DNA from: Desulfobulbaceae bacterium
GTDB lineage: Bacteria > Desulfobacterota > Desulfobulbia > Desulfobulbales > Desulfobulbaceae
DNA: 35,884 nucleotides
Direction: 5' to 3'
Assembly: GCA_011389815.1 (NCBI GenBank)
Contig: JAABTP010000005.1
Location: forward strand, 1 to 35,884
The notes under the pieces: model-generated
The model's database searches: none
Told to the model about the DNA's origin: nothing
The model's input: the letters and a program-made list of their open reading frames with translations, nothing else
In this document: piece after piece, positions 7,748-16,607 of the stretch
Position numbering within the stretch: position 1 is the first letter of the stretch
Layout of the letters: every line of letters starts with the position of its first letter
Translations under genes and position numbers: made by a program

Positions 7748-8143
7748 ATGGATGCAATACTCAGCCTGCACGATGATGAGAGAGCTGATGAGGATATTCA
7801 GGAGCTGGTCTTTTCTCTCACCCGGACGCTGAATCAGGAGACCGATCTGACAGCCGGTTTACCTGAAGAAACAGGTGGCCTTGGGACCAAAGGGGATATT
7901 GGGATTGTCGGTCAGATCATTCTTGCCGCCCTGAGTTCCGGGACAGTTGTGGCCTTGTTGCAGGTGCTGAAATCCTATGTTGAGCGTAAGCCGACCCTGC
8001 GGATTGAAATAGAGAATGCAGACGGCAGCAAGGTGAAGATTGAGGCGGAACATCTCAAAACGGACCGGATAGAACAGACCACCCGAGCGGTGCAACAGCT
8101 CTGTGAGCACAGCAGGGATACGGATAATGGCGGAAACGGCTGA
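7748..8143 (+). CDS. Effector-associated constant component 1 (EACC1)-like protein
   Basis: The 131-residue protein has the expected EACC1 layout: a variable N-terminus, a Gly-rich hydrophobic helix (GIVGQIILAALSSGTVVALL), a basic helix (LKSYVERKPT) and a beta-rich end (LRIEIENADGSKVKIEAE). EACC1 proteins are described as small constant partners of effectors such as caspases in bacterial conflict systems. The neighbour at 8127 is exactly such a caspase, and the two genes overlap by 17 bp, which supports the call. The hydrophobic helix may insert in or lie on the membrane. The biochemical role in the family is not settled; an adaptor or anchoring function is inference. Confidence 0.75.
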   Translation: MDAILSLHDDERADEDIQELVFSLTRTLNQETDLTAGLPEETGGLGTKGDIGIVGQIILAALSSGTVVALLQVLKSYVERKPTLRIEIENADGSKVKIEAEHLKTDRIEQTTRAVQQLCEHSRDTDNGGNG

Positions 8144-9731
8144 AAAACGCTACGCAATTCTGATTGCCAGCAGCAGCTACCCTAAAGAACCGGGCCTGAA
8201 GGACCTGCGCTGTCCGGAGAATGATGTTGATGCGCTGGATGCCGTGTTGCGCTCGTCGGATTTTGGGGGTTTCACCGAGACCTTTGTTTTCAAGAACCGG
8301 CCCAGCCATGAGGTACTGGAACGGATTGAGACCGTGCTGGGCGAGGCAGGTCAGCACGATCTGGTGCTCATCTATTTTTCTGGACACGGTAAGCTGAATC
8401 CGGCAGGACAGCTCTGTCTTGCCACGGCAAACACTAAGTTGCGGGCCTTGGGTTCCACCTCCATTCCGGCAGGATCAATCAAGTCCTACTTTGATCATTC
8501 CGCGAGCAGGAAGAAGATTCTCCTGCTGGACTGCTGCTACAGCGGGGCTGTGGGTAAAGATTTTGCCAGGGGAGGCGTTGACGATCAGTTACAGCTCGTG
8601 TCCCGAGGGCAGGGCACCTTTATCATGACTGCTTCCACCGGCATTGAGGTGGCAGTGGAAAAGGAGGGCGATAAGTACGGTCTGTTCACCAAGCATCTTG
8701 TGGCGGGGATTCGTTCCGGCGAGGCGGATAAGAACGAGGACGGCTTTGTGGATATGCAGGAGTTGTATGAGTATGTCCATGAGAAGGTGCAGGGGGAAGG
8801 GGCGCAGGAACCCATGAAGTGGGATCTGCATGTGAAGGGGAAGTTGGTGGTTGCACGGAGCGGCAGGGAGGCCAAAGAACAATGGCGGAAGAAGCTGCGG
8901 GCAATCCTCTACAAACTGGCTGCGCAGGGTTGGTTGTCAGACGGTATCGTCAGTAAGGCGGTGCATATCATTTCTTTGCCGGACAAGGAGATGACGACCA
9001 AAGACAGGGAATGTCTCCTGCTGATTGAACAGCTTGCTGATGAGCGGATCAGTACGGGAAACTTTGTTGAGTGTTGGGTGAAGACCTGCTTGTCAAATGA
9101 GAGTGAACAAAAAGGTGATAAGGACACGCCAAGTAGAACAAAGAATCTATGGAATTGGTTGCTTTACGATGTTTTTGCCGACCTGCTCTTGCGTTTTGTT
9201 TTTGCAGGCTTTATTGTTGCAATTGGGTGGTGGAGTTTGAAACAATGGGTGTCTCGCCCCGAGACTGTTTCTGTGCGGGAAGAAAGAACAATTGGGCAAT
9301 ATATTAATCATGGCGATGGCACGATAACGGATACGAAAACCGGTTTGATGTGGAAACGCTGTTCAGAGGGTTTGTCCGGTGTGAACTGCGAAGATGGCAA
9401 GGCCAAAGAGTATACATGGAATGATGCGGTGAAGCGTTTCAAGAATGTTGAATACGCGGGCTATGCTGATTGGCGGCTGCCGACCGTTGATGAACTGAAA
9501 ACCTTGGTGTATTGCAGCAAAGGGAAAGACAGAGAGGGTGACTGCAAGAATGGTTATGAAAGTCCGACTATCAACCAGCAGGTTTTTCCGAATACTGACT
9601 CTGTCTGGTCCGGGTCGCCGGATGCTGACTACTCGGTCAACGCGTGGTACGTCGATTTCTACGACGGCTATTCCCACATCCTCAACCGCACCTACAACTT
9701 TGCGGTGCGGCTGGTGCGCGACGGACAGTGA
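8127..9731 (+). CDS. EACC1-associated caspase-family protease fused to TM and Lcl (DUF1566) lectin-like domain
   Basis: From ATG 8127 (an upstream in-frame GTG at 8103 is less likely) the protein has 534 residues. Residues 7-250 are a caspase (clan CD) domain with catalytic His87 in IYFSGHGKLN and Cys137 in LLLDCCYSGA, both intact. A helical linker (about 255-340) may be an effector-associated domain. One membrane segment (RFVFAGFIVAIGWWSLKQWV, about 352-374) follows. The C-terminus (about 395-534) is an Lcl/DUF1566 domain with HGDGTITDTKTGLMWKRC, YADWRLPTVDEL and the ending FAVRLVR. With a single membrane segment, the lectin-like and caspase parts probably lie on opposite sides of the membrane. 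The last 35 codons are unusually GC-rich and NNC-rich, as in DGR variable regions. Cell suicide triggered by ligand binding is an inference from the family. Confidence 0.88.
   Translation: MAETAEKRYAILIASSSYPKEPGLKDLRCPENDVDALDAVLRSSDFGGFTETFVFKNRPSHEVLERIETVLGEAGQHDLVLIYFSGHGKLNPAGQLCLATANTKLRALGSTSIPAGSIKSYFDHSASRKKILLLDCCYSGAVGKDFARGGVDDQLQLVSRGQGTFIMTASTGIEVAVEKEGDKYGLFTKHLVAGIRSGEADKNEDGFVDMQELYEYVHEKVQGEGAQEPMKWDLHVKGKLVVARSGREAKEQWRKKLRAILYKLAAQGWLSDGIVSKAVHIISLPDKEMTTKDRECLLLIEQLADERISTGNFVECWVKTCLSNESEQKGDKDTPSRTKNLWNWLLYDVFADLLLRFVFAGFIVAIGWWSLKQWVSRPETVSVREERTIGQYINHGDGTITDTKTGLMWKRCSEGLSGVNCEDGKAKEYTWNDAVKRFKNVEYAGYADWRLPTVDELKTLVYCSKGKDREGDCKNGYESPTINQQVFPNTDSVWSGSPDADYSVNAWYVDFYDGYSHILNRTYNFAVRLVRDGQ
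9617..9731 (+). other. Candidate DGR variable region (VR) at the end of the Lcl domain
   Basis: Codon usage changes abruptly here. In the run encoding SHILNRTYN all nine codons are NNC, and GTC-AAC, TAC-GTC and TTC-TAC-GAC-GGC precede it. This is what results when AAC codons of a template repeat are mutagenised at adenines. The invariant frame (NAW, FxxG, R, FAVRLVR) matches the scaffold of C-type-lectin VRs. The 3' end is GC-rich (GCGGTGCGGCTGGTGCGC), as expected of an initiation-of-mutagenic-homing sequence. No template repeat or reverse transcriptase was noticed in this window, so the assignment rests on pattern only. Confidence 0.55.
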
Positions 9732-9895: not shown

Positions 9896-10351
9896 ATGCC
9901 GCAATCCCTCACAAGGATATATCTCCACATCATCTTTTCCACCAAGGAAAGAATCCCCTTTCTTGCCGACAAGGAAGTGCGCCGGAAAACCCATGCCTAC
10001 CTTTTTGGGACTTGTCGGAAATTGAGTACTCCCGCCGTGACAGTCGGTGGTATCGCAGATCATGTACACCTTATCTGCATCATGTCCCGCACCATAACGG
10101 TGGCGGATTTTGTCCGGGATATCAAGCGTACCTCCTCAAGCTGGCTCAAACAGCAGAGTGAAACTACCTCCAATTTCCATTGGCAGAACGGGTACGGCGT
10201 TTTTTCTGTCAGCCCGTCACATATTGATGCGTTAAAAAAATATATTGCCCGGCAGGAGGAACATCATCGGCAGCTTTCTTTTCAGGATGAATTTCGTCGG
10301 ATCATGCAGAAGTATGGGATGAAGTACGATGAAAAGTATCTGTGGGATTGA
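9896..10351 (+). CDS. tnpA: IS200/IS605-family (REP-associated-like) Y1 transposase
   Basis: The 151-residue protein is a complete HUH single-strand transposase. The HUH-type metal site is His56-Val57-His58 in GGIADHVHLICIM. The catalytic tyrosine is Tyr116 in LKKYIARQEEHH, and the C-terminus has the familiar YGMKYDEKYLW ending. It starts with QSLTRIYLHIIFSTKERIPF, the standard family start. AAGAGG lies about 8 nt before the ATG. No tnpB partner is present. The gene lies among palindromes and between exact 48-bp direct repeats, like REP-associated transposases that mobilise short hairpins. It should cut and rejoin single-stranded DNA at such hairpins. Confidence 0.92.
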   Translation: MPQSLTRIYLHIIFSTKERIPFLADKEVRRKTHAYLFGTCRKLSTPAVTVGGIADHVHLICIMSRTITVADFVRDIKRTSSSWLKQQSETTSNFHWQNGYGVFSVSPSHIDALKKYIARQEEHHRQLSFQDEFRRIMQKYGMKYDEKYLWD

Positions 10352-15191: not shown

Positions 15192-15325
15192 TTCTTTCCG
15201 ATAAGAAACGGAAAGTTGATAACGCCACAGCTGCTGCGAGGCAGTGTCGGAAAGCCACGGGTCTCCAATGATGGAGACAGCCGGGTTACCTGCTTTTACC
15301 TGTAACTTCTATCGGAAGGTTTATT
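15192..15325 (+). ncRNA. GEMM-I-like cyclic dinucleotide riboswitch
   Basis: The 3' half of the GEMM consensus is clear: GGAAAGCCACGGGTCTCC, a hairpin of GTCTCC and GGAGAC with an AATGAT loop, and then AGCCGGGTTACC (ending 15290). The 5' half has GATAACGCC and a stem ACA-CTGC/GCAG-TGT closed by a GCGA tetraloop (GNRA type). TTCCGATA (15196-15203) can pair with TATCGGAA (15310-15317), and AAGTT with AACTT, which covers the ribosome site GGAAGG at 15314-15319. That suggests translational control. The 5' core differs from the usual GGCAAACC, so the ligand (c-di-GMP or 3',3'-cGAMP) cannot be assigned by eye. Confidence 0.75.
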
Positions 15326-15426: not shown

Positions 15427-15559
15427 CAGAATACCCATATTTTGTATATCAAAATACCTATATTTTGATTCACGAAATATGCGTATTTCGCAACTCAAAA
15501 TACATGTATTCTGCCTCTCAAAATACATATATTTTGAAAGGCAAAACCTATGCTGTTTT
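15427..15559. promoter_or_regulatory. Array of six 18-bp palindromes with exact 23-bp period
   Basis: Palindromes of the form CAAAATA-NNNN-TATTTTG start at 15427, 15450, 15473, 15496, 15519 and (degenerate) 15542, with 5-bp spacers that differ between units. The third unit is a compensated variant, CGAAATA-TGCG-TATTTCG. Covarying arms argue for selection on dyad symmetry, as in tandem operators or iterons. It precedes the PilJ-like sensor genes. Confidence 0.8.
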
Positions 15560-15631
15560 TCAGGCAGTAATAATCAACTTCAGAGTCAATAAAAATCATA
15601 CCTGATTTTTTGTAGATAGTATTTTTACGTA

Positions 15632-15652
15632 CGGAATACATAACGTATTTCG
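15632..15652. promoter_or_regulatory. Isolated related operator-like palindrome
   Basis: CGGAATAC and GTATTTCG form a near-perfect dyad around ATAAC, resembling the units of the array 70 bp upstream. It lies about 40 bp before the first PilJ-like gene, a suitable place for a promoter-proximal operator. Confidence 0.45.
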
Positions 15653-15689
15653 TGCAAATATTTAAACGAACAAGAGGATGAAAAAGAAC

Positions 15690-16607
15690 ATGCAACAAAA
15701 ACACATTGGTAAAAAAATTATCCACGTCCCCAACAGGGTGCTTCTGGTACTGACAGCGATTACCACGCTGTTTTTTTGCACAGAAGTATCAGCAAACGCA
15801 TCAGCAAAGGATGTCCATGAAATGGCGGATATCTGTATGCAGGCCAATCGTATCCTAAAGGATTATGCTCTGGTCGGCATGGGTGTAAGTTATCATGACC
15901 CAGCCAAGGACCTGAAAGAGAACCTTGAACTCATTGAAAATGAAATCAAGGATCTTGAGGGACATAAGCAAAACGAAAAGATAGCAGCAGAGATTGAGGA
16001 AATTAAGAAATCTTGGCATGCCATCAAACCGGAATTTGAAAAAACACCGGATAAGAGCAAAATGAGTGATCTTCGGAAGATGGTTGAGAAGTTCACTGTT
16101 CGCTGTGAAGAAGTTGCCGAAGATATTGCCCAGGACACCGGTATTGAGGGAGAGCATGATGTGGTTTTGGTCGCTGAGCTGGGCATGGAGTCGCAGCGGC
16201 TGGCAGCCCTCTACCTGATGAAGGCATGGGGAATAGCTGACTCTGATTACGAAACAGAGTTACAACAGATTGTTGACCAGACCGAGAAGATCTACAAAGA
16301 ACTTTTTGAAGCTGATGAAAAACTGGTTTCTCAGGAAATTAAAGAAAGACTAAAAAAGGTTGAAAAGGAATTTATCGCCTTCAGCGTTATGGCCAAGAGT
16401 GACTCAGGCCGCTTCATGCCATCTGCGGCTGAAAAAATGGCGTCCAAGATCTTTGAAGAACTTCGTGAGATACTGGAGATGGAGCAGAAACTGGTTGAAG
16501 GAACCGTGTCAGGTTATTTTACCCCAATAGCTGATGAAAAAACAGCAGGGGAGATTTTCAGAGCAATTACAGGAATAGTACATACAAAAGGAGGAATCAA
16601 ATCATGA
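15690..16607 (+). CDS. Exported PilJ-domain-like sensor protein 1
   Basis: ATG 15690 is preferred because the AGAGG at 15673 abuts the other possible ATG at 15678; with 15678 the protein has 309 residues. A signal segment (VLLVLTAITTLFFCTEVSA) leads to a mature helical protein. Two related helical blocks are visible: MADICMQANRILKDYALVGM (near residue 45) and GMESQRLAALYLMKAWG (near residue 165). Both resemble the N-terminal sensing helices of type IV pilus chemoreceptor PilJ. There is no transmembrane anchor beyond the signal and no signalling domain, so it probably acts as a soluble periplasmic ligand or receptor partner. The next gene overlaps by 4 bp (ATGA). A close paralogue lies at 17731. 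Confidence 0.7.
   Translation: MQQKHIGKKIIHVPNRVLLVLTAITTLFFCTEVSANASAKDVHEMADICMQANRILKDYALVGMGVSYHDPAKDLKENLELIENEIKDLEGHKQNEKIAAEIEEIKKSWHAIKPEFEKTPDKSKMSDLRKMVEKFTVRCEEVAEDIAQDTGIEGEHDVVLVAELGMESQRLAALYLMKAWGIADSDYETELQQIVDQTEKIYKELFEADEKLVSQEIKERLKKVEKEFIAFSVMAKSDSGRFMPSAAEKMASKIFEELREILEMEQKLVEGTVSGYFTPIADEKTAGEIFRAITGIVHTKGGIKS

Follow-up and report, generated by a model that had tools for sequence, protein, structure and literature searches.

A palindrome array between a riboswitch and a PilJ-like gene

The window, the whole 35,884-nucleotide stretch of DNA that was analysed, comes from a cable bacterium whose own genus includes Ca. Electrothrix aarhusensis, with Ca. Electronema aureum in a second genus; its own genome, here G000, is 97% complete. 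Downstream of a c-di-GMP riboswitch, in the native leader of a PilJ-like gene and 119 bp before that gene, lies an array of five near-palindromic 18-mers (15427–15536) at a pitch of exactly 23 bp, followed in register by a degenerate sixth at 15542. The features of the locus are as follows.

15214–15294, plus strand: c-di-GMP-I riboswitch aptamer of the native leader (RF01051, 60.6 bits; gathering score 35)
15427–15444, no strand assigned: dyad 1, CAGAATACCCATATTTTG, 6/9 complementary pairs
15450–15467, no strand assigned: dyad 2, CAAAATACCTATATTTTG, 7/9 pairs, +23 bp
15473–15490, no strand assigned: dyad 3, CGAAATATGCGTATTTCG, a compensated variant, 8/9 pairs, +23 bp
15496–15513, no strand assigned: dyad 4, CAAAATACATGTATTCTG, 8/9 pairs, +23 bp
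15519–15536, no strand assigned: dyad 5, CAAAATACATATATTTTG, 8/9 pairs, +23 bp
15540–15563, minus strand: element leader, CTGAAAAACAGCATAGGTTTTGCC, including the degenerate in-register unit at 15542 (4/9 pairs)
15631–15653, plus strand: native dyad, ACGGAATACATAACGTATTTCGT, not an array unit; found at −50 to −52 from the PilJ-like start codon in G002, G003 and G005
15678–16607, plus strand: PilJ-like gene (N-terminal domain of type IV pili chemotaxis transducers; PF13675, E 2.6e-5, 24.7 bits, below the curated cut-off of 26.6)

A preliminary description of this DNA had counted six palindromes at an exact 23-bp pitch; the pitch is exact and five dyads are clean, but the sixth pairs at only four of nine positions and is the unit inside the element leader. 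In the window, the longest chain of dyads at pitch 23 with at least 7/9 pairs is four. Dinucleotide shuffling of the whole window (100 replicates) gave a longest chain of one 90 times and of two 10 times, 2,000 shuffled versions of the local 400 bp never exceeded two, and at all other pitches from 18 to 39 the window itself yields chains of at most two. The covariation of arms read from the same units is weaker than described: one of the five carries a compensated double change, and all four double changes among 19 distinct units from seven arrays of the window's sequence type are complementary, but overall 133 of 171 cells are paired, compared with 130.0 ± 3.1 after column shuffling (p = 0.21). 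As 23 bp is arithmetically about 2.2 helical turns, neighbouring dyads do not face the same side of the DNA.

PilJ-like homologues are present in all eight genomes of the genus, and c-di-GMP-I aptamers above the gathering score also stand beside those of G002–G007, with none in G001 (the window's aptamer scores 62.9 bits against RF03168, below its gathering score of 65.9). The array is absent from 13 of 14 homologous upstreams (1 kb each), including those of all seven other genomes of the genus, and is found only in the window; the runner-up 23-bp score, in G001, was 25/46 against a threshold of 27. One of 15 PilJ-like matches, a C-terminal fragment, was left out of this comparison, and the leader alignment is unreliable across the array. 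What had been taken for an extra copy near the promoter, at 15631–15653, belongs to the native leader, since it is kept in place in the three array-less relatives G002, G003 and G005; the other PilJ-like homologues showed no such dyad in their upstreams.

Elsewhere in the window, positions 8103–9731 encode a protein that combines a caspase-like domain with a C-terminal Lcl domain, and 9896–10351 an IS200-like Y1 transposase that we read as RAYT-like. Matches of the array to Rfam microRNA and sRNA families lay far below gathering scores and were rejected as artefacts of the palindromes.

Dispersal of the element in cable-bacterial genomes

The element, comprising leader and 23-bp units, occurs elsewhere in G000 on C179 with four units and on C215 with two, related units lie on C65, C163, C165, C11, C115 and C233, and the element is found in relatives as well; elsewhere it lies beside other genes. 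Its leader is invariant across three aligned G000 copies and was seen again on further G000 contigs and in relatives. Unit number changes by whole steps, one site holding a single unit in G004 and four in G007, so that with fixed ends and a variable number of inner units the dispersed element is built like a BOX or MITE repeat. When 73 genomes of the family were scanned with a two-unit pattern, allowing up to two mismatches, 158 forward matches were recovered compared with 8 for a reversed control; 157 of the 158 fell in 10 of the 13 cable-bacterial genomes, and the pattern occurred in one of the 60 others. The preliminary description had staked its reading on the motif not being both at background frequency elsewhere and absent from this locus in relatives; the locus in relatives indeed lacks the array, but the motif lies well above background.

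Among 47 array loci of the CAAAA-N8-TTTTG class, which are those collected rather than all that exist, an HU-DUF4469 gene of the MPVxYYVRENK subfamily starts shortly downstream of the element at five (four intact, one broken), and the units at these five loci, in sister species, come with a similar leader. No gene of the close subfamily lies within 1.5 kb at the other 42 loci of the class or at any of the eight loci of the window's unit type, and no HU-DUF4469 gene was found anywhere in the window. In G000 as a whole no intact MPVxYYVRENK gene was found, although at 97% completeness one could be missing; its best HU-DUF4469 match is 46% identical, and short MPVxYYVRENK heads follow the arrays on C11 and C115.

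Some copies are interrupted or set in other surroundings. Array halves stand about 100 bp apart at one G004 locus (L172) and about 1.8 kb apart at one in G007 (L179), as if something had inserted within the array, and in the Electronema-like genome G040 (L073–L077, L078, L194) arrays follow an RBS-like stretch and a very short open reading frame beginning MNTS. Exact two-unit matches also occur in rumen Clostridia, Spirochaetales and Treponema (L104–L116, L151 and others), some of which may be chance.

Arrays upstream of cable-bacterial HU-DUF4469 genes

Every one of the 13 cable-bacterial genomes has HU-DUF4469 matches, between 1 and 28 per genome (ten or more in several, and only a 46-residue fragment in G005), and none of the 60 other genomes of the family has any; across 297 sampled genomes of the phylum, the DUF4469 model matched in one, the window's own. 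From 148 matches we sampled 90 loci, roughly best first, which gave 83 genes with usable upstream sequence (6 of 89 HU open reading frames had none and were left out). Upstream sequences were periodic in 74 of the 83, with a best lag of 23 in 47, 46 in 22, 45 in 4 and 24 in 1, compared with 11 of 415 shuffled sequences. At a fixed lag of 23, 70 of the 83 upstreams were positive against 1 of 217 random genes of G004, of which 24 showed some period, mostly other than 23. These random genes replaced a first control, the other open reading frames of the same loci, because the arrays themselves had contaminated that set, in which 27 of 82 were periodic and 20 of these had a lag of 23 or 46. Random G004 DNA totalling 400 kb held a single strong 23-bp array, together with a few arrays at other periods such as 21, 22 and 42, and downstream of the cable-bacterial HU genes lag 23 was found in 0 of 79.

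After exclusion of 10 of the 83 upstreams in which no array was detected, 73 arrays were available for motif analysis. Their palindromes span roughly 14–18 bp, with a median of six units ending about 108 bp before the start codon, and palindromic symmetry beat column permutation (p ≤ 0.05) in 46 of the 73. A TTGAC/TANNNT promoter accompanied 53 of the 73 arrays, against 1.8 in shuffles (maximum 5), with the −35 box typically at −87/−88. The array keeps a mostly fixed register with this promoter: with one gene taken per 70%-identity cluster, the phase from dyad centre to −35 box lay at 2–6 (mod 23) in 15 of 16 clusters, 14 of the 30 clusters having been left out for want of a usable promoter or dyad, and over all 53 promoter-bearing arrays 39 fell in this register and 14 outside it.

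Ten downstream neighbours of HU genes (nine in G000, one in G004) revealed no shared partner; they comprise an SLT transglycosylase, XisH, DUF1835, a TauE-like protein (below cut-off), HigB, Uma2 and four without a family, and a PADLOC search returned nothing. At one G004 locus (L346:15498–15675) a 23-bp array of a different motif is followed by a TTGACA box, and we regard it as a second kind of orphan because its motif differs and no HU gene lies nearby. The open frame of 10,983 aa reported at G026:C1:32000–32950 (L201) is probably an artefact, since the upstream there is a run of N.

Motif specificity and the protein

The palindromes differ from one gene to the next. Motifs of 30 cluster representatives contained no similar pair among 435 comparisons (highest similarity 0.59), and the window's genome alone holds at least 13 mutually distinct pairs of HU-DUF4469 gene and array. 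Proteins more than 90% identical had a common motif in 11 of 11 pairs, 10 of them between genomes; between genomes, sharing fell to 15 of 24 pairs at 80–90% identity and 19 of 48 at 70–80%, and paralogues within a genome shared a motif in only 2 of 292 pairs (one in G004, one in G007; 0 of 78 in G000). Because motifs diverge in this way between paralogues and less-close homologues, pitch and register outlast the turnover of sequence.

Similar proteins tend to have similar motifs (Mantel r 0.42, p 0.001). In the 303 pairs with about 55–95% identity the motif follows the HU domain (residues 1–120; partial r 0.47) and not the rest of the protein (0.05), and over all 2,556 pairs both parts contribute (HU domain 0.19, rest 0.12). 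Pfam matches in the MPVxYYVRENK proteins are to HU-HIG, HU-DNA_bdg and DUF4469, some below cut-offs. AlphaFold models (mean pLDDT 88 and 91) have a mixed alpha/beta N-terminus followed by beta-rich domains; HU chains 5lvt and 5l8z match residues 27–117 (Z 8.1 and 8.0, rmsd 4.6 and 3.2). The sole PDB relative found to span both domains is 4fmr (BVU_2165 of Bacteroides vulgatus; hmmsearch E 6e-7), whose fold matches over 209 residues with Z 12.9 and an rmsd of 16.0, the last suggesting differently oriented domains. Fab chains also matched in the fold searches and were discounted, as they reflect the common Ig arrangement only.

Arrays beyond cable bacteria

No 23-bp array was found upstream of Bacteroidales HU-DUF4469 genes, and we had at one stage taken the arrays to be special to cable bacteria; this was dropped once Bacteroidales arrays were found downstream of the genes. 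In non-cable genes (Bacteroidota and one Treponema) the arrays stand behind the gene: in the 300 bp after it (n = 21; one gene end, L353, estimated) the best lag was 23 in 12, 24 in 2, 22 in 1, 32 in 1 and none in 5, whereas 1 of 1,050 shuffled sequences was periodic and none at 23. At three loci a 23-bp array lies farther downstream. As in cable bacteria, motifs vary gene by gene (TTCCCACGCCCATGGGAA in L303, CATCGGAGCCTAATCCGATG in L294), and palindromic symmetry passed column permutation in 9 of 17 arrays when the best of four lengths was taken. Five genes behind such arrays were scanned: one is fimbrillin-like, the Treponema one encodes leucine-rich repeats and three have no Pfam family.

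In one Bacteroidota order DUF4469 matched in 9 of 149 genomes, and it was not found in seven Bacteroidota genomes reached through pattern hits. By tblastn, relatives were found in five contigs of Parabacteroides distasonis that are filed as plasmids, in one plasmid of Treponema saccharophilum and in one gut phage contig that is unverified; a cable-bacterial HU-DUF4469 query matched no plasmid or phage, and two Bacteroidales queries had no relative in viral contigs. Arrays with a 24-bp pitch beside HU-DUF4469 genes were seen at L299:871–996 and L350:3759–3855.

A probable private binding array and its orphan copies

The preliminary description proposed that the dyads are read by a dimeric DNA-binding protein for which pitch matters, and this has gained indirect backing from comparative sequence data: 23-bp arrays of unrelated palindromes stand beside 70 of 83 cable-bacterial and 12 of 21 other HU-DUF4469 genes. 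HU proteins are dimers, and palindromic sites fit for that reason. The pitch is invariant across unrelated sequences, and the distance is therefore probably set by the protein; the register with the promoter in turn implies that a row of proteins probably reaches it. Given the observed association with HU-DUF4469 genes, the common pitch and register, the specificity of motifs for subfamilies and the lack of the array at this locus in relatives, we think it quite probable that the window array is an orphan: a copy of an array that serves some HU-Ig protein, one with an HU domain and DUF4469, as its private binding site. It shares the 23-bp pitch and the unit class of HU-linked arrays, and is termed an orphan copy rather than a full member because no HU-DUF4469 gene adjoins it.

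For the mechanism, we lean towards binding, cooperativity and autoregulation by the HU-Ig protein. An HU-Ig dimer would bind each dyad, neighbouring dimers would pack against one another by their C-terminal domains at 23-bp intervals, and the resulting row would reach the promoter and set expression of the protein's own gene. Simple autoregulation is weakened by the arrays lying upstream of the gene in cable bacteria and downstream of it elsewhere; in Bacteroidota the array could instead act on the genes behind it. The simplest history for the window would be that an array of the MPVxYYVRENK class entered the PilJ leader without its gene, and it seems doubtful that it now has an effect on the PilJ-like gene.

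The strongest alternative, though an improbable one, is a selfish interspersed repeat of MITE, BOX or REP-like kind, whose hairpin units would spread with no protein of their own and whose HU genes would be hitch-hikers. A fixed leader with a unit number that differs between two close species at one site (1 against 4), many solo copies, the RAYT-like transposase in the window and a REP-like core that lies within 160 bp of the array in 6 of 47 cases, with none in 400 kb of G004, are all as such a repeat would have them. It leaves unexplained why unrelated palindromes should stand at the same 23-bp pitch beside HU-DUF4469 genes in both cable bacteria and Bacteroidota, and why in cable bacteria they mostly keep a fixed register with the promoter. 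It may nevertheless describe how orphan copies of the HU-Ig array spread.

Three further explanations are all very unlikely. A role in DNA partition or replication, with centromere- or iteron-like arrays bound by the HU-Ig protein, would fit cooperative arrays of fixed pitch beside a binder gene, as in parC, tubC and iterons, but the ten downstream genes scanned include no shared partner and several genomes have ten or more HU-DUF4469 matches. If the array were instead an RNA element, with hairpins in tandem along the leader transcript and coupled to the riboswitch, its position between riboswitch and gene and its predicted fold (−39.9 kcal/mol, z −7.3, none of 200 shuffles as stable) would be accounted for; palindromes fold by construction, however, and the HU-linked arrays of cable bacteria would not be in that mRNA, because they lie mostly upstream of the predicted promoter. 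The cooperative operator for the PilJ-like genes favoured in the preliminary description, for which dyads at constant pitch close upstream of the gene had spoken, is largely refuted, given that the 13 other homologous upstreams, including those of all seven other genomes of the genus, lack the array and the same element lies beside other genes.

Relation to known systems

Members of the HU superfamily are usually thought of as weakly specific, chromosome-packing proteins, and a 2017 paper on novel HU clades reportedly predicted that expanded HU-HIG families recognise invading DNA. On balance, the sequence comparisons lead us to favour the view that HU-DUF4469 genes form an undescribed class of self-addressed protein–DNA pairs, represented here in cable bacteria, Bacteroidota and one Treponema, in which a member of this superfamily would have turned into a sequence-specific reader, most paralogues would have their own array at a pitch set by the protein, and orphan arrays would be remote addresses or scars of lost pairs.

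Such pairs resemble several known systems in part. In ParR–parC and TubR–tubC the binder gene adjoins a promoter-proximal tandem array of its own sites, as the HU-DUF4469 gene does; what sets the HU-DUF4469 pairs apart is the HU fold, the 23-bp spacing of dyads, the many distinct pairs in one genome and the lack of a partner NTPase among ten downstream neighbours. BOX and REP/BIME repeats have fixed ends, a variable number of inner palindromic units and dispersed copies, features that the array element shares, but its pitch is fixed at 23 bp and it is linked to one protein family. In plasmid iterons an autoregulated binder, Rep, reads direct repeats at a regular pitch near 22–23 bp; the HU-linked arrays have a similarly regular 23-bp pitch, but their units tend to palindromes and their neighbour is an HU-Ig gene. 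A specialist might file the HU-DUF4469 arrays as a variant of autoregulated binder-and-operator arrays.

Searches of the literature on DUF4469, HU-HIG, the HU superfamily, BVU_2165 and cable bacteria found no report of such arrays, nor any array or sequence-specific site described for HU-HIG/DUF4469 proteins. The main texts of three cable-bacterial genome papers (PMC10926707, PMC10580974, PMC10030654) do not contain the terms palindrom, DNA-binding or HU family, and one HU-HIG gene is listed in a Bacteroides vulgatus table of a published paper. If the HU-Ig reading is correct, it would provide a function and a testable DNA target for the HU-Ig family (DUF4469), on which our searches found no study, and dozens of natural protein–site pairs from which a recognition code of the HU fold could be worked out. 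Cable bacteria, which the title of a published paper calls unculturable, would gain a lineage-expanded set of DNA-binding proteins that can be studied in laboratory hosts. Proteins combining HU-HIG/HU-DNA_bdg with DUF4469 (PF18291, PF14848, PF14734; 4fmr) have the same domain make-up as those of cable bacteria, which at mostly about 346–358 aa are some 100 residues longer than most from Bacteroidales.
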